64,000 bases of DNA from Bryum argenteum (taxonomy: Eukaryota > Streptophyta > Bryopsida > Bryales > Bryaceae): positions 8,576,001-8,640,000 of the forward strand of contig CM073321.1 of NCBI GenBank assembly GCA_037043015.1. Reading direction: 5' to 3'. Below the pieces are notes generated by a model. That model did no database searches. It saw only the letters and a list, made by a program, of their open reading frames with translations, and was not told where the DNA came from. This document shows positions 15,185-55,164 of the stretch, piece after piece (position 1 is the first letter of the stretch; every line of letters starts with the position of its first letter). Made by a program: the position numbers and the translations under genes.

Positions 15185-15212
15185 AACACGTAATTCGTTA
15201 TAATGGGAATAT
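15185..15212 (+). repeat. Terminal inverted repeat, left end of element B
   Basis: A 28-bp perfect inverted match to 33,742-33,769. Close relatives begin at 45,658 (element C left end) and bound the miniature element at 60,627-60,983. Confidence 0.93.
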
Positions 15213-15408
15213 ATACTGATTTTGGTAATTAGGGAGACTTCCATTTAGATCGATTCTGACCTGATTAGTTACCAAATCACCAGGTTTTTACTGATAACGA
15301 TGAATTTTCTCAATATAAAAGACAATACTAGTAAAGATTTCAAAACGCAAGCTAAGAAATATGCTACCCCAAGAGTAAATTGTATTCATATGAAAGCACA
15401 AATACAAT

Positions 15409-16219
15409 TTATTGGTGTAATTGTAGACCTCCAACAGGTAGGCACTAAATTAATCTACCAATTACGACGTGGCGGAGAAGAGGTATCACCAGAAGTATCA
15501 TTCTTAGTGAATCGAGGGTCGTCACTACGAGTGTATTTAGAGAAGGCAGGTTCGTCCATCTCCATAAGCCCACCACTTCTACGACGCTGCGGCACGTCTC
15601 CGTAATAGACGGTGAGACTCGATCGAAAATCGTGTTGGATGAACGCGAGTGTTTGCCCCAAGAGATAAGGAGCAATGAGCCCCAGTATTTGGCAAGGAAC
15701 TATTTAGCTCGAGACGAGCTAAATAGGCACGGGCGTCGACGACGGGGTTGCGGGATACAGCATCACCTTGGGGTGCCGCTACAACCGAGGTCATAACACC
15801 GATTCGATCATTGCCGGTTGCAATAATCGGGTTGAATCTCAATAGGGGACCGTTGACTACACCATCATCGTCATTATCCATGTCCTCCTTCGTGTAGTCT
15901 CTGACCGACGATCGTCCTGAGCAAAGTAGATAAGCCGTCCCCGCATTCGTTCTGAGAAAGTTCTGGAGTCGTCACTTGTAATGGAATCCTCTGAAACCGT
16001 CGAAGGACCAATTACAAGATTCGCTTGCAAAGCACATGATGCATGTGGAGAGAGCTGACGTCCAACAGCAGCAACCTGGTTCATAAACACAACCATATTA
16101 GCAAGTGAGTCCAAGACGCTAAGTGCAATGAAAAAGGTACACAAAATAAGAACGCATATAATCATGTATGTCGAGGGTGGATTCACCAATCGATCTACAT
16201 AATATCTGGATCTAAGCAA
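15409..16219 (-). pseudogene. Gene 2 of element B: C-terminal exon(s)
   Basis: Homologous to 45,916-46,433 in element C: GPSTVSEDS, SRTFSERMRGRLIYFAQ, then VRDYTKEDMDNDDDGVV in a shifted frame, an embedded palindrome encoding LARLELN (about 15,703-15,723), and a terminal VGGLQLHQ followed by TAA at 15,409-15,411. The C copy ends GGLQLHQSVN in the same place. The gene ends 224 bp from the element end. Whether this belongs to the HAD-like protein or is its own small gene is not clear. At least one frame change near 15.88 kb makes this copy doubtful. Confidence 0.5.
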
Positions 16220-16277
16220 TCGTTAAACATAAGCGTTCCTAGGGTAAAAACCAGAACAATACCACTGATAAAAGAAT

Positions 16278-17108
16278 TTAAGGCAAATTCTTCCCACTGA
16301 TTCGGTCCTGATTCCACATATATGGAAGATTACGGCTCAAGAGCATATACAACTCTGAGTCCTTCGACAGTTCATTTTGCGTGGGTCTACGATGGCGCAT
16401 AGTCTCGGCGAAATTTTCAGGACCGTTCAAATGCACGGAAAGACATATCTCGCCTATCCTCTTCAAGAAGTCGGACTTTGGATCCTCGAGACAGGAATGG
16501 TTCCACGGAACAGTGAAAAGTGTGTTCTTTGTGGGAACCGCAATGCAAGTCTCGGGCTTCGAATCGACAATGAGCAAGTTGTCGTCATTGAAATTGGCAC
16601 CCTTCCTAGGATACAACCGCCGTCGAGGATATTTTAAGAGGATGGGATTTGTCGTGCCGGGGTACTTGGCGAATGCGTAATTCTTCAACAACAGATTATC
16701 GCATTGGTTGGAAGCCAAGACAAGTCCAGGGGCAGCGTCTGACTTCGAGAACAAAAAGGAGCAGAGTCCATGTACAACCTTAGGATCTACGGTACTCCAG
16801 ACGTGGACGTGGCAGAACAAATTAAGTAAGCGAAGGAACCCTGTCAACCCGGGACGACAGTAGACGACCCTCCCGGCAACTAAGGTTGGGACGGTGGAGG
16901 AAAACACCGGAGGATTATTGGGATCCGGAAAAGACAGGCACTCGGCAGGCTTTGGGGTAGACACAGAGGCCATCGAACATAGAACCCCATCCAGCTCCAA
17001 CATCACATTCAACCACTTGGGCTTGGACCGTAAAAGACTGCGGGAGATATGCGTAATGGGAAGCTCGGGCGAGATACGCTGTTTGGGATGTTTGGACGGA
17101 CCTGCCTG
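16278..17108 (-). CDS. Gene 2 of element B: FCP1/HAD-phosphatase-like protein
   Basis: The exon begins after the acceptor tcaatgcag. In order it shows KPKWLNVMLELDGVLCS (motif I), VVYCRPGLTGFLRLLN, CHVHVWSTVDPKVV (motif II with Ser/Thr), NPILLKYPRRRLYPRKG, and DDNLLIVDSKPETC (acidic motif III). This is the layout of the FCP1/SCP-type HAD domain, which removes phosphates from phospho-Ser/Thr proteins such as the RNA polymerase II tail. The usual nucleophile DxD is ELD here, ELN in element C and DVN in element D, so catalysis is doubtful and binding or regulation is more likely. The frame is open for about 277 codons, the best preserved reading frame of element B. Confidence 0.7.
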   Translation of the reverse strand, partial: QAGPSKHPKQRISPELPITHISRSLLRSKPKWLNVMLELDGVLCSMASVSTPKPAECLSFPDPNNPPVFSSTVPTLVAGRVVYCRPGLTGFLRLLNLFCHVHVWSTVDPKVVHGLCSFLFSKSDAAPGLVLASNQCDNLLLKNYAFAKYPGTTNPILLKYPRRRLYPRKGANFNDDNLLIVDSKPETCIAVPTKNTLFTVPWNHSCLEDPKSDFLKRIGEICLSVHLNGPENFAETMRHRRPTQNELSKDSELYMLLSRNLPYMWNQDRISGKNLP

Positions 17109-17162
17109 CATTGAGGGAACACGTAACAATGGCAAATGGTATTAAAACAAGAGGGTGTGTAC

Positions 17163-17456
17163 CTTGCAAAATCTTTGAGTATGCAAAGAATCGGCAAAGA
17201 CTGATTGGGTGCGAACCGCCACACCCGAGGTAACATGAGGTGGTTGGTGGGGGATTTTGAAGCAATCGGACGGAACAAGGTATTCAGAAGGGGGGCCTGA
17301 TAGAAAAGGACGAAGTTTAGGGCCTTGTGATGAGAAGGACGCAGACTCACTGAAGATAAAAACTGATTTGAAAGAAAAGAGTCTCAATATTATTGAATGA
17401 TGTTTCAATAAGTACAACGATAATAATTGTACTATGTACAAAAAGCGAAACAGCAT
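17163..17456 (-). CDS. Gene 2 of element B: 5' exon
   Basis: A donor (TTTGCAAG then GTACAC, at 17,162) joins in frame to the acceptor at 17,109, giving SLHTQRFCKAGPSKHPK. Element C has the same junction (about 46,943 to 46,891, AFHKARLSK). Conserved words gcgtcctt, ctatcagg and ccccaccaaccacct occur in both leaders. The true start codon is uncertain: an open frame runs from an ATG at 17,456, but the leader may be partly untranslated. Confidence 0.45.
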
Positions 17457-17483
17457 CCAATAATTTGGAGACTACTCGTCGAC

Positions 17484-17510
17484 CTACTCGCCGCCATCGG
17501 TGCCGGACTC
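17484..17510 (-). CDS. Gene 1 of element B: last coding exon (9 codons)
   Basis: A 27-nt exon after the acceptor cttgtttgacag: ESGTDGGE then TAG. Element C has an identical arrangement (ESGIDDGE then TAG, 47,253-47,279). This marks the end of gene 1 and separates it from gene 2. The upstream donor is at 17,603 (GAG then GTTAGT). Confidence 0.6.
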   Translation of the reverse strand, partial: ESGTDGGE

Positions 17511-17855
17511 CTGTCAAACAAGGAGCGCCGGCTTTAAGATTACTAAATGCAAAAACTTCAAGAGATGAGGGAATAGCAGAGCAAGGAAAGGATAGTAACT
17601 AACCTCTGGATTTGCCGGTGAAGTTATAGCCGTCTCAGTAGCAGCCCCGGGAGAGTCAAGGGAAGGAAGAACATCGGTCGCAGGCACGGGAGAGTCAAGG
17701 GCAGGAACAACTTCGGTAGCAGCCACGGGAGAGTGGGTCGGCGTCGGCGCTGCCTCAATCGGGACATCAGCCTCTTTCGCCGGCTTCTCCGAAATCTCGA
17801 GGGGTATGGGGCGGGGTGCGATCTCGGTTCAAAGAACAATAGGAGGTCTGTGGAG

Positions 17856-17970
17856 GCGCGACGATGGTCAGTTGTGCAGCGCGACGATGGGAGGTTGTGG
17901 AGGCGCGACGATGGTCGGGCCGTGCGGCGCGACGATGGGAGGTTGTGGAGGCGCGACGATGGGCGGTGGA
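17856..17970. repeat. 24-bp tandem repeat in coding sequence
   Basis: Five units of GCGCGACGATGG plus 12 variable bases, starting at 17,856, 17,879, 17,903, 17,927 and 17,951. On the coding strand they give HRRASTTSHRRAARPDHRRA. The unit is absent from the element C homologue. Confidence 0.85.
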
Positions 17971-18875
17971 CTCGCGTCGCGAATCTTTGGCGAGGTTGAT
18001 CGGGGTTGATGGAAGCAATGGGGACAGGAAAACTAGGCAGTTGGGATAAGATATTCCCGAATGACTGAAACATCTGCTCCATCTTGCCTAGTGCCATGCG
18101 GGTCTCGGACTGAGAGCTCAGGAAAGTGGACTCCAATTTCTCCACTCGAGCGATGTCTTCTAACCTTTGCCTCTCTCTTGCCGCTTCTCTCTCTGCTTCT
18201 TCCTTTGCCTTGCGAGCCTTCTGAACCTCCTTCTCTTGCCGCTTCTGAGCTCGCTTCTGATCCTTCGTGAGCAAAGGGGCGACAACTTCCACTTTCACTG
18301 GTGGTTGTGAAGGCTCTCCTTCCTCCGTGAGCAGAGGCATGACAGGAAGAAGAGGATCATCCTCAGCCCTCAAAGGCTTTGGAGAACTAGGCTCTTCCGA
18401 GAAATCATAGAACCGGACTACTTTGGTATCCTCCGGCTCGTCCTCGTACTTCCAAACACCTTTCACTAACCATTTGTCATACTTCCCCTTCTCAATCTGC
18501 CTCCTGGGAGGGCTCCACGGGCGCTGGGGAGAAGGGGCCAATGTAGTCTCCTGCTGGGATGGATCATGAGCCACCTCGTCGTCTAAGGTCATGGCCGCGA
18601 GATCAGCATCATCACCTTGGTCATCGTCATCCCCGTCGCCATCGCCCGCACCCTCATTATCGTCATGGTCTGACGAGTCAGAGCTGTCGGATGATGATCC
18701 ATCCCGTGGCACACGCTCTTGCCCAGGTTCTTCATCGTCTTCGCCAAAGAAATCCCGGTAGATCCCATCGTTCGAGTTCTTTGAACGAACCTCCCTTCGA
18801 AACCCCGGGGGTGGAACCGTGTGCTGAACCGGAGTCCCAGCGGCCCCAATGTCGACGACCCCAGGAGACTGCTCG

Positions 18876-18897
18876 ATTAGCTCGACTCGAGCTAAAT
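18876..18897. repeat. B palindrome inside coding sequence
   Basis: Half-site ATTAGCTCGA around one base within gene 1; the coding strand gives DLARVELI. The homologous codons of element C (48,884-48,904) hold a C-type palindrome instead (LGRIDLN). Confidence 0.8.
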
Positions 18898-19591
18898 CCT
18901 CTTCCGATGGAGGACCACGTCGCAAGCGCCGGAGGGGGGGCTCTCAATGTCCCCAACGACATCGCAGGCCCCAAAGTTGGCTTCGAGCGCCCTCCGTGCT
19001 TGAGGCACAGAAGCGCTCGGACCGAGAAGCCTCTCCCGCTCGCGCCTCAGAAGAAGAACGCTTGGTAGATTCGCGGGGAGGGGCGTGCGTGTGATCGCGG
19101 CCATGTGATGCAGAAGACCGAGCTCGACCGCTTCCACGACCCTGAGACGGAGCACGAGCAGTACCACGACCACGAGGGGGAGCACGAGCAGCACTAGACG
19201 GAATTGCCACCGCAGCCCAGTCAATTGCGGGAGGAGAAACCAGAGGAACAGCTGAATCCATGGGGGAATTCATCCCAGCCGGAGAAGAAGGATCACCTTC
19301 ATCTTCATCCTCGTGCTCAGAAGCGGAAGAGTCGTCGCTTGCAGGCTGGGTGCTCTTCTTCTTAGACATCCTCTTCTTCCCCTTCTTCGTCCCTTCAGCA
19401 GAAGGCTTGGGACCGCGATTCGCTTCTGGATTGACGTATGCTGCGACGTTGATATCGTTGTAGTCGAGATGCTGGTAATCCGACGCAGCATTCGTATAAG
19501 CCTCCTTCTCAGTCTCGCTGATAACAACATATGTCTCAGCCTGGCACATCTGTAAGAAGGCGAGAGAAACATATAAGAAGAGTAAGAAGAA

Positions 19592-19890
19592 ATAGCTCGA
19601 CTCGAGCTAAAAGGCCATGAACAAATTACATTATGAAGAGATATAAGCATGGGAGTGTTTAGCTCGAAGCGAGCTAAATAGGCATGAGAGTGTTTAGCTC
19701 GAGTCGAGCTAAACAGGCATGAGAGTGTTTAGCTCGACTCGAGCTAAACAGGCATGAGAGTGTTTAGCTCGACTCGAGCTAAACAGCCATGAGAGTGTTC
19801 GGCTCGACCTGAGCTAAACGAGCATAAGATCGTTTAGCTCGAGTCGAGCTAAACGAGCATGGGATCGTTTAGCTCGACTCGAGCTAAACG
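19592..19890. repeat. B palindromes, 35-bp tandem array in an intron
   Basis: Eight copies; seven of them start at 19,658, 19,693, 19,728, 19,763, 19,798, 19,833 and 19,868, exactly 35 bp apart. They lie in the intron 19,550-19,933 of gene 1. The homologous introns of C and D carry C-type and D-type palindromes. Confidence 0.9.
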
Positions 19891-19933
19891 AGCTTGTGGA
19901 ATTCAAATTAAAAGAAAGGAGCAATGTACTTAC

Positions 19934-21281
19934 AATTCCAGCCAACATTGGCTTTGTGCCACCCATAATCGATAGAAACTTCCCTCCCGGAGATGAGAAC
20001 ATCTTCAGCACACGACAGTAGAACTCCAATCGGAGCTCGGTATCACTGAGACTAAGGTGGTGTTCTCTGTACGCGCCGGGCTTCGAGTACAGGGGCAACT
20101 CTGGAGCGTAGAATACAGAGGGAATCGCATCCAACACACTCTGAGCATGGCTGCTTTTCTTGACAAGAAAGAGGAGGGGGAGCAAGTGCTTCTCTGAAGC
20201 TTTTCCCTCTGCGATGCCGTTAAAACGCTCGTTGCTGGCCGGCATGTAGTTGGCAGCCTTGCGAGAGTACCCGTCCTTCAACTTCTTGTCGACGTAAACC
20301 ATTGCCTGGCAGTTACGGTCGACGTTGGAGGTGATGAACATCCAAACCTCGGGATTCTTGATGTGAGGATCGGTCACGGTGTCTGCCCACACATCAAGGA
20401 ATTCCTGAAAGTATGGACTCTCTGTGTCGTCCACTCTACTTCCGCTCCCCGGGACAGCTCGCAAATCAATCAAGCCTAAATCACACTTACTTGATTGGTT
20501 CCAGACGTAGTCCTTGTCCCAACTCCCGAATTTAAACTCGGAAGAGTGAAAGAGCCGCGTGTAAACAGTCGGTTCAGGAGGTTGAAACGTCCCTTTGACA
20601 TCCAGGAACTTCTTGAAGAACTCAAATTTGCATATTCCGATATCTCACCGCACTCTCTATTCTTCGTCTGCGCTTTTGGCGGTAGAGGTGAAGAACGAGT
20701 CGCCCGGGACCGAGAGAAGCATGGACATAGTCCGACGAGTCGATTGTATTCCACCTTAAACTTCCTCCAGTTGTCGACGTTGAAGTGCCACTCGGAGTCG
20801 AACAAACCGAGCGAGGGCTTGAGGTTGTGCAGTTCCCTCGCGACAGTGTTCTTCCTCTTCCGATTCTCCACCCACCGCTTTGCACTCATGCACCGGAAGT
20901 ATTTCTTCGCGAGCTTCCTCACGGCCACCTTGGGGTAGGGCAACGTTCGATCCGAGTCTCGTTCGGCAAGTCTTTGCGCCAACACCTCGAGGTTCTCCGC
21001 GTCCAATCGCCCCATCCCCTTGAAGAACTCCCCTGTTCAAGGAGAACTTCTTTGAGGCGGTTTCCCGTCTTTCGCCCGATTGAATGGGAGCTCGGTGTCG
21101 GGGTCGATCGCTCTCCGAGATCGTAGCTGATGATGAACCTCTTCCACAACTCGTAGACGTCGTCGGGAGATGTGATGATGAGGAGCTCGTTGCGAAGGTC
21201 GGACGGTCCGACGATCTTGTCCTTCACGTTATTGTTGTTGATGCTTTGATGAACCTCTTCACCATAGCGGCCCGCGAATGC
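19934..21281 (-). pseudogene. Gene 1 of element B: methyltransferase-like core exon
   Basis: The exon runs from the acceptor gctttctgcag to a donor (GGAATT then GTAAGT). Segments in order: LIITSPDDVYELWKRFI, LPYPKVAVRKLAKKYFRC, RKRKNTVARELHNLKPSL, GLIDLRAVPG (place of catalytic [DNS]PP[YF]), NPEVWMFITSNVDRNCQ, FYAPELPLYSKPGAYRE (like motif X), TELRLEFYCRVLKMFSSP, then GKFLSIMGGTKPMLAG (place of the SAM loop DxFxGSG). The order fits beta-class N6/N4 methyltransferases, which in bacteria and phages are often fused to ParB-like domains. Frame changes near 21,115, 21,000 and 20,565 make this copy non-functional. Element C is the better guide. Confidence 0.6.
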
Positions 21282-21322
21282 CTGCAGAAAGCCAAACTAT
21301 TAAGAAACAACCTATCTTTGTT

Positions 21323-21343
21323 TTAGCTCGAGTCGAGCTAAAA
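21323..21343. repeat. B palindrome in intron after the ParB-like exon
   Basis: One copy in the intron 21,282-21,420. The matching introns in C (51.5-51.6 kb) and D (about 34,175) also carry palindromes. Confidence 0.85.
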
Positions 21344-21420
21344 CGACATCCCAAACACGCGTCGACAGAAAAATGCAACCAAAGCCAACCAGGAAATGCA
21401 AGGATGAGGTAATGTCATAC

Positions 21421-22745
21421 CTCATAACGCTTCCGGTTATCTAATTCAACCGGTGTTTCACGTCGATGTGGCTTCTTGAGCTTCTCAGGGCGGCCATAGT
21501 CTTCCCAGACCTTTCTAGCGCCCATGATGTTCGTTGCCCAGGAAGGTATGAACGTCCCAGCATTGTTCGTCTTGTTCGCCATGGCCGACACGTCCAAAAT
21601 CTTGTTGATGTTGGAATGCCACACAACGTGGGCTTTCCATGTCTGAAGGGCGAGGACCTTCGATTCGTCGACCTTCTTGTCCCGAATCAACTGTTTCGCA
21701 GCCTCAACGTGGTGCTGCCCGTCGATAATTCGGAACCGACAAGATTGGATCAGAACGTCCCAATCCCAAACCTCAGGCGCAGTTGTGATCTTCGGCATTA
21801 TGATGATGGTTTGTCTGGAAGAAACATCAAGAGAATTCATCAAGATGTTCTTGTAATGCGCGATGCCGGCTGGTTCGAGAGATCGCACGATGAACCTTGG
21901 TTCGGAAGGGTCAAGGAGGTCGATCGACACGTCAAGGGGGATTGTCACGACCGAATACATAACACTCTCCACAAAATGTCCCCAAAGTCCTCCGGAGACT
22001 TTGTCGCCTCCTCGTACTTGATGTCCTTCTCGAGACACGGCCACGTTCATGGTAGGGTTCATGAACGCCGTCGCGCCGCTTGGGAGGATTTGCTCCTCTT
22101 TGATCCAGAGCCGAAGAATTCGGGTTAGGACGCTTCATACTCGAACGCCTAGACTTCCCTCGGAGTGCCTAGACCCGACGGAGCATTCCCGGATGGAGCC
22201 GGCAACAGATTCCCCGGCCCTTTCATTGGAGCCTTGCCTTTCTTCTTCGCATTCTCGAAATCGGAGAGAGCCTTCCCGATCTCAAGGCAGTGTAAGGAAT
22301 GTAGGATCCGGCGAAGATTTTCGGAGAAGACCGATTGGGCGGCAATTTCGTGTCGATGTGATGAAGTTGATTGGCATCGACCTTCCCGACCATGAAGCTC
22401 CGGATGAAGTCGTGGGAGAAACGGACTTCATTAGGGGAAACACAATGGTGAAGACGAATCCTTCGACCTCCACCGCTTGAACTTGATCATGAAAATTCAT
22501 CCTCATAGGTAACAAGTTCGATGAAGGCATCGACACAGGGCAAAAACGCCCGTGAGATCCTCGATCGTTGATAAAACAAGAAGTGGGTCTTGTTCAACGG
22601 ACGAATCGACCAAGACTTGATGGAATGTTTCTTGGGGTCCACAATTTTCCCCATTGCGCGTCGAGAAAAATAGCGGCGGATCGTCCCGTGATTCGATTTC
22701 AACTCAGTGCAAGGAATCCCTCCAAGGCTTGCATATTATAAGTGA
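21421..22745 (-). pseudogene. Gene 1 of element B: N-terminal region and ParB-like domain
   Basis: The exon starts after ttattcacag with VTYNMQALEGFL (VPFDMSSIEGYL in C), meets a TGA and a frame change, and continues GKIVDPKKHSIKSWSI, AFIELVTYEDEF and a Lys/Arg-rich stretch. From 22,062 the frame is open: FIVRSLEPAGIAHYKNIL, RQTIIIMPKITTAPEVWDW, FRIIDGQHHVEAAKQL, WKAHVVWHSNINKIL, ANKTNNAGTFIPSWATNI and KRYE before the donor. DGQHHVEAAKQL resembles the ParB/Srx-type motif DGHHRLEAAKxL, where the Arg binds phosphate or DNA; here it is His. The following Asn-rich helices are conserved in all four elements. Only the 3' part of this exon is intact. Confidence 0.65.
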
Positions 22746-22838
22746 CCTGTGAATAACAAAATAATAGAGGGCGAATTAGCTCGATTCGAGCTAAATGGGC
22801 ACAATAGGGGAGAACATAGATCTGAAGTAGACTATTAC

Positions 22839-22943
22839 CTCAGGAGCCGACTCTTGCTGCTCCACTTCCATGTTGATTTCAGACTCGGCAGGGGCATTTG
22901 TAGCCATCTGAACAATTCTGGCAGTTTGTTTCGTTCTCGGCAT
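22839..22943 (-). CDS. Gene 1 of element B: first coding exon, histone H3 tail mimic
   Basis: The ATG lies two bases inside the exon that follows the acceptor ttgaatgacag. The exon reads MPRTKQTAR, then IVQMATNAPAESE and more, 35 codons, up to the donor GAG-GTAATA. Mature histone H3 begins ARTKQTAR, so seven of the first eight residues after Met are identical and the change is Ala to Pro. Cytosolic processing would remove Met before Pro or Ala and expose the mimic at the N-terminus. Element C starts MARTKQTA with the rest of the exon diverged. No histone fold follows. The H3 tail is read by PHD, chromo-like and demethylase domains, so a chromatin-binding role is plausible (inference). Confidence 0.75.
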
Positions 22944-23119
22944 CACTGTCATTCAAACAATGAGAAACAAACTGTAAGATTCACAGGGGCAGTGGCACTT
23001 CCTCATCATCTAGGCTATCGATCCAAGATAAACCATCAAACATGTTTAGATATATTGCCAAGATTATTTACCCCCAGTCGAGCTCAACTGGGTTAACCTA
23101 CTACATGGCAGGAAGGCCA

Positions 23120-23930
23120 TTTAGCTCGACTCGAGCTAAATGGCCCGGACCGCAAACAATGTCGGTCCCATTTAGGACGGGTCGAGCAAAATGGGCTATA
23201 AACTCGTACTGCAGAGCAAGCGAGCTCATTTAGCTCGACTCGAGCTAAATGGACATACTACCCTGTAGCAGGTTTCCTGGCTATTTAGCCCGACCCGGGC
23301 TAAATGGTCACGAACCTGGAACAAGGCCAGGCCCATTTAGCTCGAGTCGAGCTAAATGGGCGTCTTTACTCCTTCAGAGTCAAGCCCGTTTAGCTCGAAT
23401 CGAGCTAAACGGGCCTCGCCACGCCCAGATCCGTTACCATTTAGCCTATGTCTAGCCTAAATGGGATTGGACTACGGACAGAGGAAGTCACCCCATTTAG
23501 CTCGACTCGAGCTAAATGGGCATGTCCCCATACAAGGTCAAGACCATTTAGCTCGAGTCGAGCTAAATGGGCTTGGACTACGACAAGTAGTGGGCCCCAT
23601 TTAGCTCGGCTCGAGCTAAATGGACCCGGACCTTGCGTGGGGTCATGCCCATTTAGCTCGAGTCGAGCTAAATAGGTGACTACCTTGCCAGTAGTCAAGC
23701 CCATTTAGCTCGACTCGAGCTAAATGGGCCTCGACCCCATACAGGTCGAGACCATTTAGCTCGAGTCGAGCTAAATGGGCTCACTACCTGGTCAGAGTCC
23801 AAGCCCATTTAGCTCGACTCGAGCTAAATGGTCTCGACCTCTGATAGTCGGCCCATTTAGCTCGAGTCGAGCTAAATGGGCTTGGCCTGAAACGAGGTCC
23901 GAGACCATTTAGCTCGATTCGAGCTAAATG
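23120..23930. repeat. Palindrome array B1, 16 copies in the leader intron of gene 1
   Basis: Copies start at 23,120, 23,171, 23,229, 23,283, 23,336, 23,389, 23,440, 23,496, 23,547, 23,600, 23,652, 23,704, 23,754, 23,808, 23,856 and 23,908. Most extend to a 31-bp palindrome by flanking GCCCA/TGGGC. Start-to-start distances are 48-58 bp with a mean of 52.5. Spacer text between copies is mostly unique. The array lies in the predicted leader intron (donor 24,233, acceptor 22,946). Confidence 0.92.
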
Positions 23931-23974
23931 GGCTTCGGTTGGCATGGAGAACTATGGCAAAGAATCGAATTAAT

Positions 23975-24050
23975 TGGGCTAAAGTGGCATCGAGCTAAAT
24001 GGGCATCGAGCTAAATGGACATCGAGCTAAATGGGCATCGAGCTAAATGA
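23975..24050. repeat. Tandem single half-sites, outer edge of array B1
   Basis: ATCGAGCTAAATGGGC-like units of 16 bp, about four in direct repeat. Element C shows the same at 55,165-55,250 with its own half-site (ATCGACCTAAATGCACACC). Confidence 0.85.
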
Positions 24051-24233
24051 GCTGGAAGTTCGAATGAGCGCATTCTAGCAGAAAAACACAAATTTTGAAG
24101 CAATGAACACAAATTTGCGTGAAGCCACTACACTTCGAGCAGTATTCGAAAACATTGTGCCCTGCAACGTACAAAACAAGCTCCTAAAGCACAATCTCAA
24201 TGCAAAACCTAAAATTCAGAGGTAAGAACTTAC

Positions 24234-24780
24234 ATGAACAAGCAGGAAACGAGGACGCCCAACAACTTCGTAGAAGAATGCTTTGGAATGCCGAGAGCTC
24301 AAACAAGGCCGAAGATGGAAGAGCAAGCGCAAGAAAGTATGACCGCAGAGAGCTCGCACGATGAGGAGCAAAACCTAAAACAAGAGCATAAAAAGAGAGA
24401 AGCAAAAGCAAATTGCGCGCGAGTAGCACAAATCGGGCAGAGGCGGAAGAGGAGGGATGGCGGGAGAGGCGCGAAGGAGGGCGAAGCGCAGTAGCAAGGA
24501 GCAGAGAGAGAGCACAATGGAGAGAGGAGAAGATTGAAGGAGCGCGCGGAGCTGCGATGCGGAGGAGCTGCGACGCGGAGGAGCGCGAGGAGCCGCGATA
24601 TCAAACGAGAGCCCGAAATGGGGCGGGGACCACAGTCGGCGGGCGCTCCCGCTGCGCGGGCTGCCCGCCGCCGCCGGTTTGCAGGCTGCCCGGCTGCCCG
24701 GGCTGCCCGGGCTGCCCCGCCGCCGATTTTCTGGCTGCCCAGCTGCCCGGGCTGCCCGGGTGGAAATTTCCAAAAAATTT
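24234..24780 (-). promoter_or_regulatory. Leader and promoter region of element B gene 1
   Basis: A minus-strand donor (GTTCAT then GTAAGT) at 24,233 ends a leader exon. Upstream the minus strand is C/T-rich with many GCTCC words (24.40-24.60 kb), then a block of repeated GGGCTGCCC/CCCGG dyads (24.64-24.77 kb), then AT-rich DNA. The plus-strand gene 3 has a mirror-image C/T-rich leader at 28.75-29.0 kb. The transcription start itself is not visible. Confidence 0.5.
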
Positions 24781-27700
24781 TTTATTTTTTATTTTTAAAA
24801 AAAAGCAAGTTCTATTATTTGGGGCGAGATGTATTTCAAAAAAATAAATGGAATCAAAGGAATTTTTGTATGTGAAGTAGGTAATAACGACTCTATAAAA
24901 TTTAGAAATCACCAAAATAATTTCTAAGAAGTCGAAACTAATTTTCCCGATTTAGTTTAGATTACCTCTATGGACTGAACTTTGAATAAGATGTAGAAAA
25001 TATATAGAAGAGAAGAAAAATATTTTTAAATTTTAGGTTAACTAATTATGACCCTAGAAAATAGATGGTGTTATTTAGAAATTTGTGAGAAAGACACATA
25101 TCTATGCTATGAGTTTCTTACAAAAGTTTTAACACATTGGCACTTTGAATAATAAGGTAAAAAATAAATAAAATGCAAAGGAAAAAAGTTGTCCCGAGAC
25201 TAGCTTATAATAACCTTATAAAAATTATAGTACCATAAAATAAATCATAGGAATAAAGTATCTACGTGTCATCATTTAAGTGGAACTTTCCAGAATTTGA
25301 ATAAGCAGGTCAATAAGAAAATGATGGAAAGAAGGTGATTTGAATACGTACAATAGCTTAATAGGACCATATGAATGTGTTGAAAGTGTGAAATATATCA
25401 TAAGACAAATGAAACTATGTCTATAAATTTCATGAGGATTCAAGAACCCAGCATAATTTGAAGTACGAGACGAGTGCTAGTGTATGCGCAAAAAGTGATG
25501 GAGAGTGGTTTTTATAACTTTAAATCATAATTCATGTCATATGATAATTAAAGACAAAATATTAGGATTTGCCAAGAAAGCAATGGAAGTATATTTTTTT
25601 TCCTTTTTTTTTCTGTTTACTTTAAAATTAAATATTTATTTTATTTGTTTTTGGTTAATTTTATATGTTTTTGTTTTCACGCATTGAATTAAAATAGTTC
25701 ATTTCTATTGTTAAAGCTTAAATTAATACGTAAGTAATCAAAATAAAGTGAATAAAGATATTTTTAAATCCTAGAGTAATTATCCTATAAAATGTTAGTT
25801 AAATATGTTTAATTGGTAGGAAAGGAAATTAAAGTTAAGAAACATAGAATAATTCGTGAAATGTAAATAAATAAAACACCAGATTATATTTGTAGTGATC
25901 GAGTTAAAAATATTATATGCTTGGAAAAACTATGTGTAGAAAGAAAATGACGATTGAAGTAAGTAAAAACATTTAATATAGTGGCAAATAGAGAGTGTAA
26001 GATGGTTTTTATAACTTGATTGCTTTACTTGTTTCCCCTGCGCAATTGCTTCCTCTATTGGATCAATATGTTTGTGTCAAAGTAGCGCAACCAATTACAT
26101 CATGCGAAAGGAAATAATCAAGAATGCACCACTATCATGTGATGTGAGCAAATACCGTCATTCTTAAATGTCTTCTCGCAAAGAAAGCTTCTTATAGGGT
26201 CAATCTCATTTTAACGGAATGAGTCTCATTTTGATTGAAATTCTGATATACATAGTTGATATCCTATACGTAAGTATTCTTTCTTAAGTAAAGATAAAAG
26301 TGTTTAATTTCCCAATTGCATTCTAAAAGTAACTTCCTAAAAGTAACTAATTATGAAAGATTTCCAAATCAGCTTCCTTATAAATCATGAAGGTATAATG
26401 TTCAGTGTTGGAAAATAACTTTTTATTTGTTCTTGCATAGGCAAATCTTAGTTTCTTAAGATAGTAAGATACAAGATCACAAAAAAGATATTTTTGGTTC
26501 TAAATAATTAATTTTCATTAGTAAAACGTTAAATGATTTGACCTACATTAAGTACATTTGTAGGCAATAAGCATACTGTTAGCACGGAATAAAATAAAGT
26601 ATATACGCAGAATTAAAATTGCATTTAATTTATGTATGACGAATGCCCATGATTATTAATCTACATATCCTCGTTTAGTAGGGAAATATCCTATTGGAAG
26701 AAAACATTATTAATATTCACATTCAACTATTAGCACTGATAGACATTTTATATTATTAAAAATTTAAAAATACAGTAGATTAGTCTATTGATATAATAAC
26801 TTTTATTTAAATATTAATTAATGTAGTAATATAGTGTATAATAGCATATTCAATAATACTGAATATACCTTATTATAATAAGAAATATATTTTCATATAG
26901 TACAATATGGTTGAACAAAACATATTAGTATATTAAACAGAAATTAATCTCAACTCCTTAATCTTTAATCAAAAATTATTACTTAAGTAAAGAATATTTA
27001 AATAAAAAAGGTATGACGATTTCACATAAATATTGTGTTAGGGTAAACATGGCACATGTAAACAAATAACGAAATTTTAAATTTAATGCAGAACCAACAC
27101 ATTTGATTCTCATAGCTTAATATACAAATCTCCTAAAAATGAATGTGCCATTTGCAACCATTTTACAATAGCAATTATCAGATTGATTCAATGAGCGCGA
27201 GGATTAGCTAAAGTAGCATGAGCGAGGAGTAGCAGCAGAAAACAACGGCGGAATAGCCAAAAGACATGTGCCCGGGGAAAGTGGGAGTGCGCCACGAGAT
27301 TGAATGCGTTGCGAGAGTTCTCTATTAGAGTATAAAATTTAGGCTAACGATTTTAGGAATTAAGGTTTTGGTTATTGAGTTAAAGGTTTAGGTTTAAAGG
27401 TTGATCATTTTTGAACTTATAGAGTGAGGATTGAAAAGTAAACATAGAAGTTACTTATCAGCTTATAAAAAAAAGCGTAAATGCGGATACATTATAAAAT
27501 TTTGAAAATAACTTTAGAATAGTGTAATATATAAAACATCCTAGCATAAGAATTGAAGTAAAATGAATATTATTATGTTTGAATATCACACATAGAATAC
27601 TAAACTTCCAAAAACATATAGTCGACACTCAATTTTAACAACACTGAATTTTAAATCAATAATATAATACTTTAAATATAGTATACTTTAAGTATTATAC

Positions 27701-28555
27701 TTTAAGTAATATACTTAAAATATCTTATTGGAAATAACATAGTTTAAGAAATACGTAATAAACTTATGATTTCTCAACTTATTCACTGTCTAAATACTTA
27801 TATGATATTATATCACATAAATATCTTGAATATTATGTTTATAATGGCCATTTGTAGAATATCACATTCAACTTAATTGAATATCATACGTGATACACCA
27901 CACCTAATTGACTAGAAACTAATCTTATAGAATCACATTTAAATAATTTGAATATAATATTTACTATAATTGTTTCAATGTGTAAAGTATTTATCTTTTA
28001 ATATTACATGTAATTTAGTAAATACAAATCTTACAATTATACTTCACAACACCTATCGATTTTAATCAATTAAGCATAAACGCTAGGCTTAAAGACTATA
28101 AAGTTGTAAAGAATCACCTTGAGATCATGATTATGAAAAAGCGAATCATGAAAAACTCTTTTTAATTTCACGTAATTGGCTTGCAATCATAATACATGCT
28201 CCATGCTTGGAGTTCCAATAAAATAAAAGAGTTGTTTTCACTTAAGTGCATTTCATTATTTCATACTTTTTTGCAAAGTTTAGAATAGAAACTAGACTTG
28301 ATTTGGAGCAAAACCTAAGTGATATCATTCAAAACGGACCTCGGACGAAGAAGATATGGCTATTCAAAGTTATGCTTTCTATTCAAAATGTCGTTTTTTG
28401 ACATTCGGCGCATTAAGAGTTTAACATTCTAGTGCCCGATATGAGATTATTTTGTTCATTTGAGTTTGGGTTATCCATTGTCCTCCCGAATCCGGTTTTT
28501 ATTATTACAATTATGTAATTTCTATTTTTAGAAGTATTACAAATTTCTCCGTGAC
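24781..28555. other. AT-rich central spacer of element B
   Basis: About 3.8 kb of AT-rich DNA with no credible gene. A short GC-richer patch occurs at 27.19-27.33 kb and a dense TA dyad at 27.66-27.73 kb. It separates the divergent leaders of gene 1 and gene 3. Confidence 0.7.
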
Positions 28556-29174
28556 TTAACTTCAAATGATTTTACTGGCCTAAGATGTCCTCGTTCCTCC
28601 CAAATTTCCGAAGATGTCCTCGTTCCTTGCGAAGTTCCCGGTTCCTTGTGAAGTTCCCCGTTTCCCCCCAAGTTCCCATCCACGTCGCTTTTACTCTATA
28701 CCGTTACTGGCCGTATTTGGCGCCCTTTCTATTTTGAGTTCGTGATCTTGTTTGGCGCCATTTCTCTTCCCGCTTGCTCTAGCTCTCTCCTCATTGGCGC
28801 ACTATGCGCTTTCGGCTCCTCTCTTGCTCCGCTCCTGTGCTCTTTCCGCTCCTTTGCTCTTTCCGCTCCTTCGCTCCTGCCGCGCGCTCCTGCTGCTTTT
28901 CCGCTCCTCTCCGGCTCCGCTCCCGCTCTTTCCGCTCCTCTCCGGCGCCGCTCTGTTGCCCTTCGCCTCACCTCCTCCGCACCTTCGCATCTTTGCACTT
29001 CGTCTCTGTACACTACGTTTAGCCTAAACTACCTATTACCATTAGTGCTTCCGGTTTTGCAAATCTGGTTTAGGGTTTAAGACTCTCAGAAGCTCTGGAG
29101 TTGATGCGCGTGGTGCTTTTGAGGATGCCCAAGGCCTTCGTTGAAATACCGCAGCTGTCAAGCACGGCGTGAGG
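28556..29174 (+). promoter_or_regulatory. Leader and promoter region of element B gene 3
   Basis: Short direct repeats GATGTCCTCGTTCCT (two copies, about 28,586 and 28,612) and GAAGTTCCC-like words lead into a C/T-rich tract built of CTCTTTCCGCTCC units (28.78-28.97 kb). A leader exon ends at 29,174 with donor GAGG-GTAAGT; the acceptor is gcattcag at 30,358, six bases before the ATG. Confidence 0.5.
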
Positions 29175-29448
29175 GTAAGTTCGGTCTATATCCTCAATGT
29201 CAATGTATAAGAAGAGATTGTTGTTAATTGGTCATATCTTGCGTTCATCGTGGTGCATTCCTGATAACAATGTGGATATCGTCGGTTTAGTTGTGCACGA
29301 AAATCGAGGCAAAGATACTGTTTTACTTCTGCACAGTTCCCAAGAACGATTTATAGTATTTGCTGTGCACGAATATCGAGGCAGTCTCATATAACATATG
29401 CATGATATGCTCCTGAAGTCCTGTAATGAAGGACTCACTCGAAGACCA

Positions 29449-30261
29449 TTTAGCTCGAGTCGAGCTAAATGGGCTTGATCTGCTACAGGGCAGTCCGCCC
29501 ATTTAGCTCGAGTCGAGCTAAATGGGCTTGCACTGAGTTAAAACTGTACGCCCATTTAGCTCGACTCGAGCTAAATGGGCGTACTGTCCTGTATCAGTTC
29601 AAGCCCATTTAGCTCGACTCGAGCTAAATGGGCTTGCATTGTATCAGAGCAGTTCAAGCCCATTTAGCTCGAGTCGAGCTAAATGGGCGTCAGATTTAAC
29701 TCATCTGCAAGCCCATTTAGCTCGACTCGAGCTAAATGGGCTTAACCTTCATCGGAGTGGTATGCCCATTTAGCTCGACTCGAGCTAAATGGTCATCCGG
29801 TTTTAATCACGTCGTGGTGAGCGTTGAACAAGATTATCTTGAAGACCATTTAGCTCGAGTCGAGCTAAATAGTCATTTAGATAATCGTTTCATCACGCTT
29901 TACCGCGAAGTCATTGATCCTGGATGACTATTTAGCTCGACTCGAGCTAAATGGTCTTTCCTTCGACATGCTTCGGGGTAAACAAAATGTATTTAGATCT
30001 TCAAGAACATTTAGCTCGAGCCATGCTAAATTGTCATCCTGGTTTGATCGCTTCATGGTGAATGGTAAACAATTATTCAAGACCATTTAGCTCGAGTCGA
30101 CCTAAATGTTCATTCGAAAAACTGCTCATCACGCTTACCTCGGCGTTAGCGGCGTGATGACCATTTAGCTCGAATCGAGCTAAATGGTCGACGATATACA
30201 CTTGCATCGTGGTAGTGGTGACTTCTGATCTTGAAGTCCATTCAGCTCGAGTCGAGCTTAA
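29449..30261. repeat. Palindrome array B2, 13 copies in the leader intron of gene 3
   Basis: Starts: 29,449, 29,502, 29,555, 29,608, 29,663, 29,716, 29,769 (53-55 bp apart), then 29,849, 29,931, 30,010, 30,086, 30,164 and 30,241 (76-82 bp apart). The copy at 30,086 is a hybrid: a B left half and a C-type right half (CGACCTAAA). Flanking GCCCA/TGGGC extend most copies. Confidence 0.92.
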
Positions 30262-30364
30262 TGGTCATATATTCTTAATGGTAATAAGCATTTCTGACTG
30301 CACATAGATTTAGCTACCAGTGGTTTCTCATGATTGTTTATTTATTGCTGGCATTCAGGTTATC

Positions 30365-33306
30365 ATGGAATTGAGTGAGTCCGATGGCGAGGATGATTTG
30401 CGGCGTTTTTTTTCGGAGGTACTGGACTTACTTATTTTGCATAATACATCATTGTTCTGAGTTTATCCATTCGTACTAATTCGTCTATGTTTGTGGTCTT
30501 GTAGGACTTGGATGGTCCTTCTGAGCTTGTTCTTCCGGACCATTTAAAAGATTGCCCCGGACTACCCAGAAGTAAATGGGTTACGAAATTTGTGACACTT
30601 CTCAACGATGGTGGCGACGTTGTGGGTGAAGGCATTTGTCAGACTCTGGACGCTGAAAGAATGCTTGAGAGTAATGACGAGCCCTTATGTGAAGATCAAG
30701 TAGTTGTGCAGATCGTGAAGTGTTTGAATTTCGAGTTCATACCTGCTGAGACCATTTATGGAACTAGGAACTGAAGCTCAGTCATGCTATGCATGAGGGT
30801 TGGTCACTACTTGATCATTTACGAGTTGATCGCTTTAACGTCATTGTTTATGCCCGCGATCATCCAAAGAAGAAGGGGGTGCGACCGTATGATTTGGGAG
30901 AACGGAACCAACGGGTTGTGAGGACCAAGAGGGAGGAGGAACTCTTGACGTTAGATTGATCCAACTTAGTTGCAAGCAAGATTTCTTTGCAGCGAAGAAT
31001 CATTACAACCTTTCCCTCGTGAGAAAATTATGGCTCTCCGAAAGCGGATGTACGAGGCGTCGGGTTTTAAATTTAAATCACATTTCAAGATCGATGTTCA
31101 TAATCGTTTTCATCGTGCACCGGGACGGCAAGATGATGGTGACCATCAAGGCATTGATGTTTGCGCGCGTGCGTGCATGGCAACATATTAGTGGAGTTCC
31201 GATTTCCACATTTTACAAAGCGGAAGGCGTAAGCCGCACTGGACTACGTGCTCGGCACCATGGGAATGTTGGTCAAGAAACCTCGATTGCACGTGAAGCA
31301 AGTCGTTGCTACTCTCAAGACATTCATTGACAATGTCACGATCATATGCCCCACCGGTCGAAGATGTTGACATCTGGTGAGAAGGTTGTCTCGCGGTCCT
31401 TGCCATCGTCCTTTAGATGGAAGGATGCCATACCAGGGATCAATGACATCAATGAGAGGTTGGGCTTGAAGTCTATTTCTCAGAGCACACTGAGCAGGAT
31501 TAGGAGGTCAAAATTTTCTGAGTATTCAAAGAAAGCGCCTGGGGACAACTTTGCTCGTTGCTCAACTTGTGACAGGATGGAGACAATGATCAAGTCTATG
31601 GTACCTGATTCATGTGAAGAGAATATGTGGATCAAGAAGCTAGAGGAGCATTTGCATCATCAAGAAACGCATCGTGAGTATTATTATTCAAATCGTTCTC
31701 TTTCTATTCAATGGCCGAGAGATGTCCTCTCAGATAATACATGACAAAATGGATCATGCGAAGACCGCCGTCTGTATTTTCACATAAAACGAAGGCAAAT
31801 GATGCATTAATGAAGCTTCCAATTGTCAGAATCGCATGATTGCTCACGGGCATAGCGATGTCCGATATGCTCATTATGGGCTCGATATTTATCCAAGTGA
31901 TTGCAATCACACTGTTGGATCAATATTAAAGCTTTTACGAGATCTAGAAGGTGTTCCGATCTCATATTCGAAGTCATTATTCGCAAATTCGGGGTCGCTG
32001 CCTTTATTTGAAGCTGTACTGTTCGGAAAAGAAGGGTGTTTAAACTCTCTTCTACCTGAAAGTGAAGTTTGTGGGGTGGCGGAGCCTCTACCTCCTGTCC
32101 TGCATGTGCAACTCGACAACGCAGCTTCTGATAACAAGAATAGATTTATGTTTTGCTTTTGGTCTCTTCTGGTACACATGGGTGTGTTCCGTGAAGTATA
32201 CGTTAATTTCTTGTTAGTTGGACATACCCACGAAGACATTGACGCCCTCTTTGGACGTTGGAGCATGACTCTCAAAGAGAACGACTTTCTCACACTTCCT
32301 CAGTTGATGAAGTCATTTATGGACGCGGAGGCTTTGCCCGTTATTCCTCATTTGATAGAGGAAATACCTGACTTCAAGGGTTATATCAAAGACTACATTG
32401 GTTCCAGAGATGAAATTTTAGTTGGGCATTCGGAGGGTCAGCAGTTCAAGTTTTACAAGCATGACAATGGATGGCCCATGATGCAGTATAAGATGTTATG
32501 CACAGACAAGGAGTGGTTACCTTCTACTGATGGAGGTATAAAATTGTGGAAAGAGGACCGAAGTACGGGGAAACCAATGTTACCTACAGGTGACATGAAA
32601 CCTTTGGCGCCCATTCCTATGAAGAACCGTGATGACATTGTAAAAGGCATTGGAGGGTTTATTAAGATGTGGGAGACTTCAAGTGCGGAGGACATATCGG
32701 GAGAATTTGGTCGGCGTCATGAATTTGTTATTCGCTATTGGCGAGCTGTGAAGCTGGCGTTGGTTGAGCCTATAGAAGTGTCCTCATTTTTGAAGAACGG
32801 TTGTTGGCCTTTAACTCGAGTACCTGCGACACGAGAATTCTTAAATCTTGCGAATCATGAAAGAATATGGGCGTGATCCGCACTTTATCGGACGGTTGTG
32901 TGATAGACCAAGGGAGTCCTTTCGGGTTGGTCGAGATGTTTTTGCTGGATACTTTGTAGCTCTACGGCCAGCTGATGGGGATACTCGTCCTTTCTGGATT
33001 GCTAGGGCCCTGACTGATTTCGATGTTGATCACAACTATCCAGGCTGTATTCAAATGCAATATTTTCAACCTGCATCGAGAAATAGTGTTGTTCAGGAAA
33101 CCTATGCTGGTTGGGATACGAAGAAGACATTCAAATGGAAAGTTGAAGACACTCACATTCCGGAATGGCTTCATGCTGATGCAATTTTTACGTCATGGAA
33201 ATCAAGTGCAAAACTTGGCTCTCGGCGTCCTATTATTTCATTATCGGAGCGTCAAATCGACATCATCAAACAAAGTATTGAGCGGTTCGACGGTGGAGAG
33301 GAGTAG
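30365..33306 (+). pseudogene. Gene 3 of element B: DUF7869-type transposase candidate, broken
   Basis: Exon 1 is 30,365-30,418 (MELSESDGEDDLRRFFSE), the intron 30,419-30,504 has GT-AG ends, and exon 2 runs to TAG at 33,306. Landmarks: CSTCDRM (zinc-ribbon-like Cys pair), IAHGHSDVRYAHYGLDIY, VQLDNAASDNKNRF, GHTHEDIDALFGRW, and a C-terminal PFWIARALTDFDVDHNYPG region shared with copy A. The DN...DNKN and GHTHxDID acidic clusters are the probable catalytic residues of an RNase H-like fold (inference). A frameshift near 30,770 follows TIYGTRN. Others lie near 30.96-31.35, 31.73, 31.79, 31.83 and 32.85 kb. The frame 31,836-32,876 (346 codons) is intact and holds the core. It ends 463 bp before the right terminal repeat. 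Confidence 0.75.
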
Positions 33307-33741
33307 CCTGACATCCCTCTATTTGGGCATGCCCATTTAGCTCTAGTCGAGCTAAATGACCTCGATCTGTTTGAGTCACAATTTATCGTGTGACTTTTTG
33401 TCAATACATTCATCTTTGAAATGGTCGTTCTAGAAGTCCTACCATTCGTAGTTAAGTATTGGTACGGTTTTTATGCCTTAAAGTTAACAATGGAAGTGTT
33501 TGTACATTTCCGGACTTGGTTGTCGATTCCCAGTTTAATTGACTTTATCGTTTTATTGTGCTCTTTTAGCAAATTGCTGTCAGGCTGCATTTTCTCTTGC
33601 TATTATCATCATCTTTTGTATTCAGTTTAGTTCTACTACATGCGCGTTTAGCTCTACATCACGCGCGGTTTGCTCTAAAACATGCACGTTTAGCTCGATA
33701 TATATGTTGGAATTTAGGTCGATTGGTTTTTGAGAGTTTGG
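33307..33741. other. 3' flank of gene 3, element B, with a lone palindrome
   Basis: No gene. A B palindrome (33,336-33,356) lies 30 bp after the stop codon, and degenerate half-sites occur at 33,640-33,710. Confidence 0.7.
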
Positions 33742-33769
33742 ATATTCCCATTATAACGAATTACGTGTT
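33742..33769 (-). repeat. Terminal inverted repeat, right end of element B
   Basis: Perfect inverted copy of 15,185-15,212, followed by the TTTT duplication (33,770-33,773). Confidence 0.93.
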
Positions 33770-35746: not shown

Positions 35747-36510
35747 TATCGTCGACCCGTCGATACAGTCTTCTCATATCTCTCGAAAATGGAAGAGACG
35801 ATATGAGCGTTTTTAAACACTCTTTTTGAATTAACTTAACAGCTCATTGTCGAACCGATGATGAGCTCTCATGCATTCTCTGGGAGCAAAATAGTGATAG
35901 ATCTCATTTATTTCTTTCCTCTAGTGTCTAAGCTATCTACCTCAAAGGTAGCTATTGTCGGACCAACAATATAGACGTCATGTTGCAGAATGTTATATCA
36001 ATGGCTAACTTCTCTTCTCTAAATTGTACAATTTCACGATACTGAAGGTTATTGTCGTGCCGACAATATCCTTGTTTTTTTTAGATATATATATGTTTCT
36101 TTTGGATTTACATGTTTCTTTCTAGATTTACATGTTTCTTTTTCAATTATAGTATCAACGGCTCCACGATAACTTTCTAACTATCCTCTAGAAAGTTTTA
36201 TTTGTTCATTTTACTACATTTAAGGCCTTATGAAGCCTTGTATCGTCGACGCGACGATAAGGCCATTTGAAGCCTTGTATCGTCGGCCCGACGATAAGGC
36301 CATTGAAAGCCTTGTATCTTCGACCCGACGATAAGGCCATTTGAAGCCCTGTGTCGTCAACCCGACGATAAGGCCATTTGAAGCCTTGTATCGTCGACCC
36401 GACAATAAGGCCATTGCTCTCTAAACTATATTTTGAGTTTGTGGCCTTTTAAATTTATTTTAAATCTTCTTAGTGCTACATTCTATTGTTGTATCGTCCG
36501 CTCGACAATA
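35747..36510. repeat. Palindrome array D (half-site TATCGTCGN)
   Basis: Single copies near 35,747, 35,852, 35,956, 36,050, 36,151 and 36,495, and a tight tandem of five starting at 36,241, 36,278, 36,315, 36,352 and 36,389 (37-bp period, flanked by AAGCCTTG and AGGCCATT). It lies upstream of the first recognisable coding exon of D gene 1, where a leader intron would be. Confidence 0.9.
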
Positions 36511-39112: not shown

Positions 39113-39710
39113 CACTAGTACAAATCCCGGATTTTTTGACTGCATTTTTGACTAGCCAACAGTCAAAAACGGACATGTTTTTTGAACTTGACTAACACTA
39201 TTTTGAGTCAAAAAAGACAAGTCGCTCCGGACATTTTGACTCGCAGTCAAAAACGGACATCTGCGTTCCCATGCGCTACGTTCCCGAAGATTTTTGGGAC
39301 CTCGATTGGGCTGGACTAGGGACTTTCGTTTGAATGACTCGGATTAGTCAAAACACATGACCACAACCAGTCACTAGTCGTCTGGGAATTAAGTGAATTC
39401 GGTTGACTAAGTTTAGTCATGTTGGTAAATACGGTTTACAATACTAGGACTATTTTTAGTCATACGACTTTACACAATTTAGTCAATGAATTCGTTGCCA
39501 TCTATAGGCTGCTGACTGCATGCAGTCATTGTCGCGGTTTTAAGGAGCGTAGATTGTGTGAATATAACTTTGGGGAATCACATAGTGTTTCAGTTTTGAC
39601 TGGTTGGAGTCAATATGGATGACTGCAGCCATTTCGGATGACTGTGTATAGTCAAGAGTAGTGGCGACGTGGTGTCATTGGAGATGACTAATTTCTGTCA
39701 TGTAGTGGTG
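39113..39710. repeat. TGACT/AGTCA subterminal repeat region
   Basis: More than 15 TGACT or AGTCA words, several as dyads (TTTTGACTCGCAGTCAAAA at about 39,228). They recur at 44,720-44,868. Subterminal repeats of this kind bind TNPA in CACTA elements (family knowledge). Confidence 0.7.
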
Positions 39711-45657: not shown

Positions 45658-45685
45658 AATACGTAATTCATTATAATGGGGATAT
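45658..45685 (+). repeat. Terminal inverted repeat, left end of element C
   Basis: Matches 15,185-15,212 with three or so differences. No right partner is in the window in the correct orientation except that of the miniature element at 60.6 kb. Confidence 0.88.
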
Positions 45686-53120: not shown

Positions 53121-53213
53121 CTGATTGTCAAGAGGTTCATCCTGACTACCAGAACGGATGTCCCTCTCTGCGGGAGCGGGAACAATTGTAGCAGTCTGCT
53201 TGGTGCGAGCCAT
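53121..53213 (-). CDS. Gene 1 of element C: first coding exon, histone H3 tail mimic
   Basis: The ATG lies two bases after the acceptor tgctgaattgcag; the exon ends CAG before GTATGA. It reads MARTKQTA, then TIVPAPAERDIRSGSQDEP, 31 codons. The first eight residues equal those of histone H3 (MARTKQTA), including Lys4, which is the methylated residue read by PHD fingers and acted on by H3K4 enzymes. Element B begins MPRTKQTAR and shares IV at residues 10-11; the rest of the two exons differs, so selection on the tail is the simplest explanation. No histone fold follows. What it binds is unknown. Confidence 0.78.
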
Positions 53214-55140: not shown

Positions 55141-55164
55141 AGGAAATACCTAATTTTGCGACCT

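Follow-up and report, generated by a model that had tools for sequence, protein, structure and literature searches.

Introduction

The SNAG peptides of SNAI1 and GFI1 form the N-terminus of their proteins, MPRSF..., with a consensus of MPR-S-F-L/V-V-K/R lying before the zinc fingers, and they depart from the histone H3 sequence after residue 2-3. SNAG peptides occupy the H3 cleft of LSD1, and the substitution P2A blocks LSD1 binding (PMC5896174). The PHD finger of UHRF1 reads ARTK of H3 and also VRTK of PAF15 (PMC12704277). Influenza NS1 and SARS-CoV-2 ORF8 are viral histone mimics carrying short copies of H3-tail motifs (PMC10208167). In CHARM an engineered unmethylated H3 tail on a DNA-targeting editor activates DNMT3A, the first 12 residues being enough (PMC11875203). 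In plants, the PHD proteins AIPP2 and PAIPP2, together with a partner, read unmethylated H3K4 (PMC13361950). Histone mimicry is already known from viruses and host regulators. Among the papers listed, judged by titles and the openings of abstracts, no report of a transposon mimic of the H3 tip was found.

Here we describe two related transposons, elements B and C, in a 64-kb window of Bryum argenteum DNA (the whole stretch analysed, 64,000 nucleotides), in which the first coding exon of gene 1 would encode a close copy of the H3 tip. As with the SNAG peptides, the proposed free N-terminus of the B protein has a P-R start copying the H3 tail, and the gene of B also starts M-P-R. The SNAG carriers are transcription repressors, whereas here a transposon protein has 7-8 residues matching H3; M-P-R alone is shared, by B only, and zinc-finger families were absent from Pfam scans of the pieces tested. 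PAF15/PCLAF has a free H3-like N-terminus (VRTK), as is proposed here, but it is a host replication factor in DNA-methylation maintenance with four matching residues. NS1 and ORF8 resemble gene 1 in being short copies of an H3-tail motif borne by a parasite of the genome; they are, however, RNA-virus proteins, and ORF8 copies ARKS, whereas gene 1 has the K4 module at its N-terminus and belongs to a DNA transposon. CHARM also has an N-terminal H3 tail on a DNA-targeting protein, placed there so that a chromatin enzyme is engaged, but it is man-made and the enzyme is mammalian DNMT3A. As a mobile element, B compares with inverted-repeat DNA transposons carrying a DUF7869 gene, with which it shares 28-bp inverted ends, hundreds of genomic ends and the DUF7869 gene itself; the term DUF7869 was absent from the papers listed by a literature search.

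Results

Elements B and C and their genes

Element B is an inverted-repeat DNA transposon whose terminal inverted repeats occur in many copies. It runs from 15185 to 33769 (18,585 bp, ~18.6 kb end to end; Table 1) and in this copy has TTTT on both sides, within runs of T, as a candidate target-site duplication. A 27-bp pattern of the repeat, with <=2 mismatches, occurs in the genome 468 times on one strand and 463 times on the other, and the reversed control 0 times. Contig C1 carries 32 motif-bearing B exons, which were compared with the exact repeats among the matches listed on C1 only. Nine of them lie between exact left and right repeats within 22 kb either side, with repeat-to-repeat spans of 16.2-27.9 kb, while 8 have a repeat on one side and 15 on neither; random positions are flanked by both exact repeats in 0.6% of cases. 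The right end of element C was not found within the 64-kb window and is probably beyond 64000. Two diverged copies of the terminal repeat, inverted and ~355 bp apart, are present at 60628-60982 and resemble a non-autonomous miniature element.

Table 1. Positions in the 64-kb window of features of elements B and C.
Feature	Position	Strand	Sequence or evidence
First coding exon, element B gene 1	22839..22943	-	MPRTKQTAR (H3-like) and 26 more variable codons; translation, copies, tree, constraint
First coding intron, element B gene 1, phase 0	22747..22838	-	GTAATA...TTCACAG
Inferred 5' leader intron, gene 1	22946..24233	-	GTAAGT at 24233, acceptor AG 22947-22946; holds palindrome array CATTTAGCTCGA(G/C)TCGAGCTAAATG
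Second exon, gene 1 of B	21418..22746	-	IDGQHHVEAAK domain; broken over several frames; profile of exon-2 relatives matches 22735-22490, 22486-22226, 22134-21418
Downstream exons, gene 1 of B	17624..21296	-	Conserved C-terminal domain and low-complexity region; homologous to C 51504-50003, 49611-47401; relatives P0014-P0017
Second gene of B, NLI-interacting-factor (NIF/FCP1-like) phosphatase domain	15860..17141	-	PF03031 E 1.1e-5, 25.6 bits vs cut-off 21.8
Divergent third gene of B, DUF7869 domain	30363..33306 (start approximate)	+	PF25273 E 7.4e-41
Left terminal inverted repeat, element B	15185..15212	+	AACACGTAATTCGTTATAATGGGAATAT; 28/28 identical to inverted copy at 33742-33769
Right terminal inverted repeat, element B	33742..33769	-	Perfect 28-bp partner of left end
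First coding exon, element C gene 1	53121..53213	-	MARTKQTATIVPAPAERDIRSGSQDEPLDNQ
Left end, element C	45659..45679	+	Same terminal repeat, 2 mismatches

The DUF7869 gene of B starts MELSESDGEDD, which is not H3-like, and is a candidate transposase for the element. Further copies of DUF7869 type lie at 6961-9675 and 38363-39151 and are mutually 72-85% alike. The phosphatase gene lies 3' of gene 1 in both elements, with pieces in C at 46924-46643 and 46452-45919, and is a possible second hook into host transcription. Palindromic or tandem arrays occur in introns and flanks (23064-23937, 29446-30300, 19613-19931, 53253-55189 and 36184-36416), and in element B the unit CATTTAGCTCGAGTCGAGCTAAATG recurs in the gene 1 leader and in the sequence flanking the divergent DUF7869 gene on its 5' side.

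The copy of B in the window is probably dead, as its exon 2 of gene 1 is divided among several frames; some other genomic copies have open frames of 440-502 aa, stop-free in the matched part. The best matches of the exon-2 domain were to the ParB-like PHROG 1033 (E 0.043) and to DndB (E 0.15, 11.5 bits vs a cut-off of 29.1), both from the corresponding part of copy L040 and both below threshold, and hence no family match above cut-off places it among ParB-like or DndB-like nucleases. Solved structures gave no credible match to exon 2. By eye only, the C-terminal domain looks like a DNA methyltransferase, and no claim is made for this. Public homologues number 11 for exon 2 and 4 for the C-terminal domain; exon 1 was absent from their predicted proteins, and no relatives were confirmed in viral contigs or prokaryote genomes. 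Distant relatives of gene 1, with ~29-35% identity, were noted at 34209-35660 and 1-1070, the former beginning on the exon-2 part without an H3-like exon. The distant element D of the window has no H3-like exon, its gene 1 reading MAETEAYDYK straight onto the part homologous to exon 2.

The first coding exon of gene 1

The original prediction was of an H3-like exon in B, with a clean acceptor and a donor after codon 35, and of a homologue in C. Both were confirmed, and the B exon was assigned to the minus strand, which the prediction had not given. Read from the DNA, the B exon (22943-22839) starts MPRTKQTARIVQ and its whole translation is MPRTKQTARIVQMATNAPAESEINMEVEQQESAPE. The acceptor AG at 22947-22946 stands two bases 5' of the ATG and the donor GT is at 22838, after codon 35. 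The next exon continues in frame from 22746 as VTYNMQALEGF, matching MQALEGYLEP of P0006. The homologue in C begins MARTKQTATIVPAPAERD at 53213, giving MARTKQTAT, with the same layout as in B.

Counted from residue 1 of the predicted protein N-terminus, identity to H3 is 7/8 in B, where P replaces A at residue 1, and 7/7 in C. The K9 module is absent, the match stopping at residue 8 in B and at residue 7 in C, and the exons continue IVQMA or IVPAP where H3 has KSTGG. Other H3 or H4 tail words in the 64-kb window amounted to six short matches, each 4-5 residues long, and no gene start was assigned to any of them. The run of 7-8 identical residues, and the fact that transposons do capture host exons, would suit an origin of the exon by capture from a host histone H3 gene. 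However, no likeness to H3 extends past residue 8, the host H3 codons are ATGGCGCGT and ATGGCTCGT vs ATGCCGAGA and ATGGCTCG[CAG] in the elements, and K4 and Q5 are missing in the older-branching relatives described below. Capture is rejected on the codons together with these relatives, and we attach next to no probability to it.

For the peptide to act as a free tail it must be the N-terminus of the protein. Of 14 B copies inspected, 12 have a GTAAGT 5' of exon 1, and in three of these the CATGTAAG context is shared. Provided that the GTAAGT at 24233 marks the end of the leader exon, the window copy has no in-frame ATG upstream of MPRTKQTAR. The peptide would be internal or missing if an upstream coding exon were joined in frame or if translation started later, and the frame of the window-copy leader is indeed open for 123 codons upstream of the ATG. 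Nevertheless, this open stretch lacks an ATG, copy L005 has an in-frame stop there as the third codon before the ATG, and the ATG itself is retained in 51/51 readable exons on the B side (57/63 on the C side, 108/114 in total). A peptide that is not N-terminal thus seems very improbable. The starting methionine is normally removed when the residue at position 2 is small. We infer translation of the gene-1 protein from this ATG; its methionine would then be removed, each of the 114 readable exons having A, P, S or T as residue 2.

Copies of the exon in the genome

Across the 25 contigs of the genome (258.8 Mb), the pattern M[AP]RTKQTA matches the DNA exactly at 110 places and the reversed pattern at 0; its occurrence is therefore not chance. 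Among the 100 sites listed, 12 coincide with matches to host histone H3, these genes having been located with plant H3 as query (98% alike), and 88 have the codons of B, ATGCCGAGAAC, or of C, ATGGCTCG[CAG]AC. Contig C1, the largest (44.1 of the 258.8 Mb), holds 66 of the 110 sites, a strong excess, and is perhaps a sex chromosome or another repeat-rich chromosome.

A survey blind to the motif was made by picking copies by the exon-2 domain ~0.9-1.1 kb downstream. The 902 first-look candidates were reduced to 150 scored places, of which 128 were sampled (L039-L166), among them the C and B copies of the window itself. In 117 sampled copies exon 1 could be placed, 65/70 on the C side and 52/58 on the B side; the pieces searched were short and misses may be of place. 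Dropping L041, L059 and L134, which have indels in or beside the motif, left 114 readable exons from the family members nearest to C and B. M[APS]RTKQTA is retained in 66 of these, 34/63 on the C side and 32/51 on the B side. The other exons are partly the result of single-residue decay (MPRTKHTAR, MARTKQTPT) and partly whole subfamilies, namely MARTKMTAT, MARIKSTAR, MARTSTPAR, MARTRTTAR, MARTRTSAR and MARSRITTR on the C side and MPRTRTTAK, MPRTSTTAK, MPRTKTTTK, MARTRPTAK, MARTRITAT and MARTRTIAK on the B side.

The original prediction was to fall if most family copies lacked RTKQTA, and the outcome depends on how wide the family is drawn. Near C and B the majority keep the motif, as counted above. 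In the wider family of ~900 places (902 or 915 candidates, vs 98 non-H3 motif sites, this being 110 less 12) most copies are without the exact motif.

K4 and Q5 on the tree

A tree was built from 113 copies, using 203/256 columns of the region surrounding exon 1, from which codons 1-9 had been taken out; the divergent copy L112 was also dropped. Four B copies with a single loss of Q or K (MPRTNQTAR, two MPRTKHTAR and MPRTKETAR) were labelled KQ. The split between B and C has support of 100/100. The 40 KQ copies of C form one clade (100/99), nested in K-M copies (one K-I) with forks of 98/79 and 100/99, and next outward on the C side come MARTSTPAR (94/63), the IKS group and then the SRI, RTS, RM and RTT copies. 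The 42 KQ copies of B form two clades (100/98 each), a single clade not being rejected (AU p 0.57). These clades sit behind four successive single non-KQ copies, L161, L138, L163 and L141, parted by three starred forks, and leave an unresolved fork from which four further non-KQ copies also branch.

The KQ label needs 3 changes on this tree, and placing all KQ copies in one clade is rejected (p 5e-47). Inheritance of KQ from the common ancestor of B and C is on these grounds rejected as the simplest history, and an ancestral K-Q is further disfavoured because many separate losses would be needed. Most simply, K4 and Q5 would have been gained separately in B and C, with the reservation that label counts cannot prove direction (gain vs loss) and that the tree groups were named after the data had been seen. 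The branching order rests on the tree since identity of the domain to B (76-99% for KQ copies, 77-82% for non-KQ copies) does not separate the two kinds; a MARTRTTAR copy on C9 has 61% identity to B and 72% to C.

The older-branching relatives read MARTRTTAR, MPRTRTTAK, MARIKSTAR and similar sequences. Accordingly RTKQTA, proposed at first for the family, holds in two clades and not family-wide. These relatives lack K4 and Q5, so that a stepwise origin of the match is the simplest, and they show that the exon has some use without the two residues. The starting tail would, most simply, already have been similar to H3 at A1, R2, T3, T6 and A7. The candidate steps RT, KT or KM, then KQ persist as sister subfamilies in one genome. 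The KQ pair is written AAA CAA in B and AAG CAG in C; the change to Gln takes 3 bases from ACC, as in most B relatives, and 2 from ACG or ATG, as in the C relatives.

Constraint on the copied codons

Fewer amino-acid changes had been expected at the start of the exon than further on. Changes were counted by parsimony within the two KQ clades (42 B and 40 C copies) and codons 3-8 were compared with the rest of the exon (codon 10 on) by a one-sided Fisher test. The expectation was borne out for codons 3-8: pooled, they took 15 amino-acid and 20 silent changes, while the rest of the exon took 102 and 39 (p = 0.0012), although these counts are small and the tested groups were named after the data had been seen. 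In C alone the ratios are 4:12 vs 35:16 (p 0.0026). In B alone they are 11:8 vs 67:23 (p 0.12), or 13:8 for codons 2-8 (p 0.19), and are not significant. Site-corrected rate ratios, with a transition bias of 2, are 0.49 vs 0.87 in B and 0.13 vs 0.74 in C.

The inner branches are informative because they belong to copies that left descendants. On these, amino-acid and silent changes number 0 and 6 in codons 3-8 and 34 and 14 in the remaining codons (p 0.0015); on end branches the counts are 15:14 vs 68:25 (p 0.029). Codon 6 (Q) of B has 3 amino-acid changes and codon 8 (A) has 5, all on end branches, and codons 5 and 6 of the C clade have none. Such a pattern would be expected if working elements are under selection and copies decay once they are dead.

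These counts bear on two other accounts of the exon. It could encode a short basic arm used for nuclear entry or for contact with DNA or protein, in which case M[AP]RT[KR]xTA[RK]I[IV] would resemble H3 by accident and KQ would be due to drift or some other reason. The older-branching relatives, and MARTRPTAK also, do keep the theme outside the KQ clades without K4 and Q5, and positions 4-5 differ between subfamilies. Against this, both of the most numerous sampled clades reached the exact H3 pair via multi-base changes, while other destinations at the Q codon are mostly single-base neighbours of ACN, and the KQ pair is conserved on the inner branches of both clades. We regard a basic arm as unlikely, though it deserves to be kept in mind. 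WDR5 accepts A-R-T, and it could be that only this start is functional, as a family-wide ligand of a WDR5-type or similar arginine pocket, with K4 and Q5 incidental. R2 is present in 105/114 and T3 in 101/114 readable exons, including exons outside the KQ clades, but the MAHIKSTAR and MAGIKSTAR copies have lost R2, the whole IKS group has lost T3, and the codons of K4 and Q5 took no amino-acid change within the C clade. This account appears improbable.

Discussion

The reading towards which we lean, with some hesitation, is that the N-terminus of the gene-1 protein is a selected mimic of H3 residues 1-8 that engages proteins of the H3K4 module. The H3 residues copied are those to which readers of unmethylated H3K4, LSD1-type demethylases and similar pockets bind. 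Gene 1 of a ~16-20-kb inverted-end DNA transposon would give a protein exposing PRTKQTAR (B) or ARTKQTA (C) once the methionine is removed. The exposed tail could then enter the pocket of an H3K4-module protein, for example an LSD1-type demethylase or a protein reading unmethylated H3K4, in the manner of the SNAG peptides and of the VRTK end of PAF15. The gain would probably be either to bring such a complex to the protein-DNA complex of the element or to occupy it. As a result the element might be kept from silencing or be steered to particular chromatin, this being the least certain step.

A stronger form of the argument, to which we would give not quite even weight, is that two lineages converged on the exact H3 tip because the gene-1 protein must dock into the H3K4-reading or demethylating machinery of the host, for use against silencing or for targeting. 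The absence of the exact motif from most of the wider family, the use of the exon without K4 and Q5 in older-branching relatives, the lack of significance in B alone, the end of exact H3 identity at residue 7 or 8 and the broken state of the window copy count against mimicry, and the N-terminal proline of B may fit some H3 readers poorly.

If selected mimicry is the true explanation, this would be a transposon that mimics the histone tail in order to counter silencing or to find its targets, and mobile elements would also fight or exploit chromatin by imitating the H3 tip. Since subfamilies with and without the exact match coexist, the effect on binding of the changes R4 to K, T5 to Q and K8 to R can be tested with short peptides. 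The origin of a molecular mimic thereby becomes directly testable.
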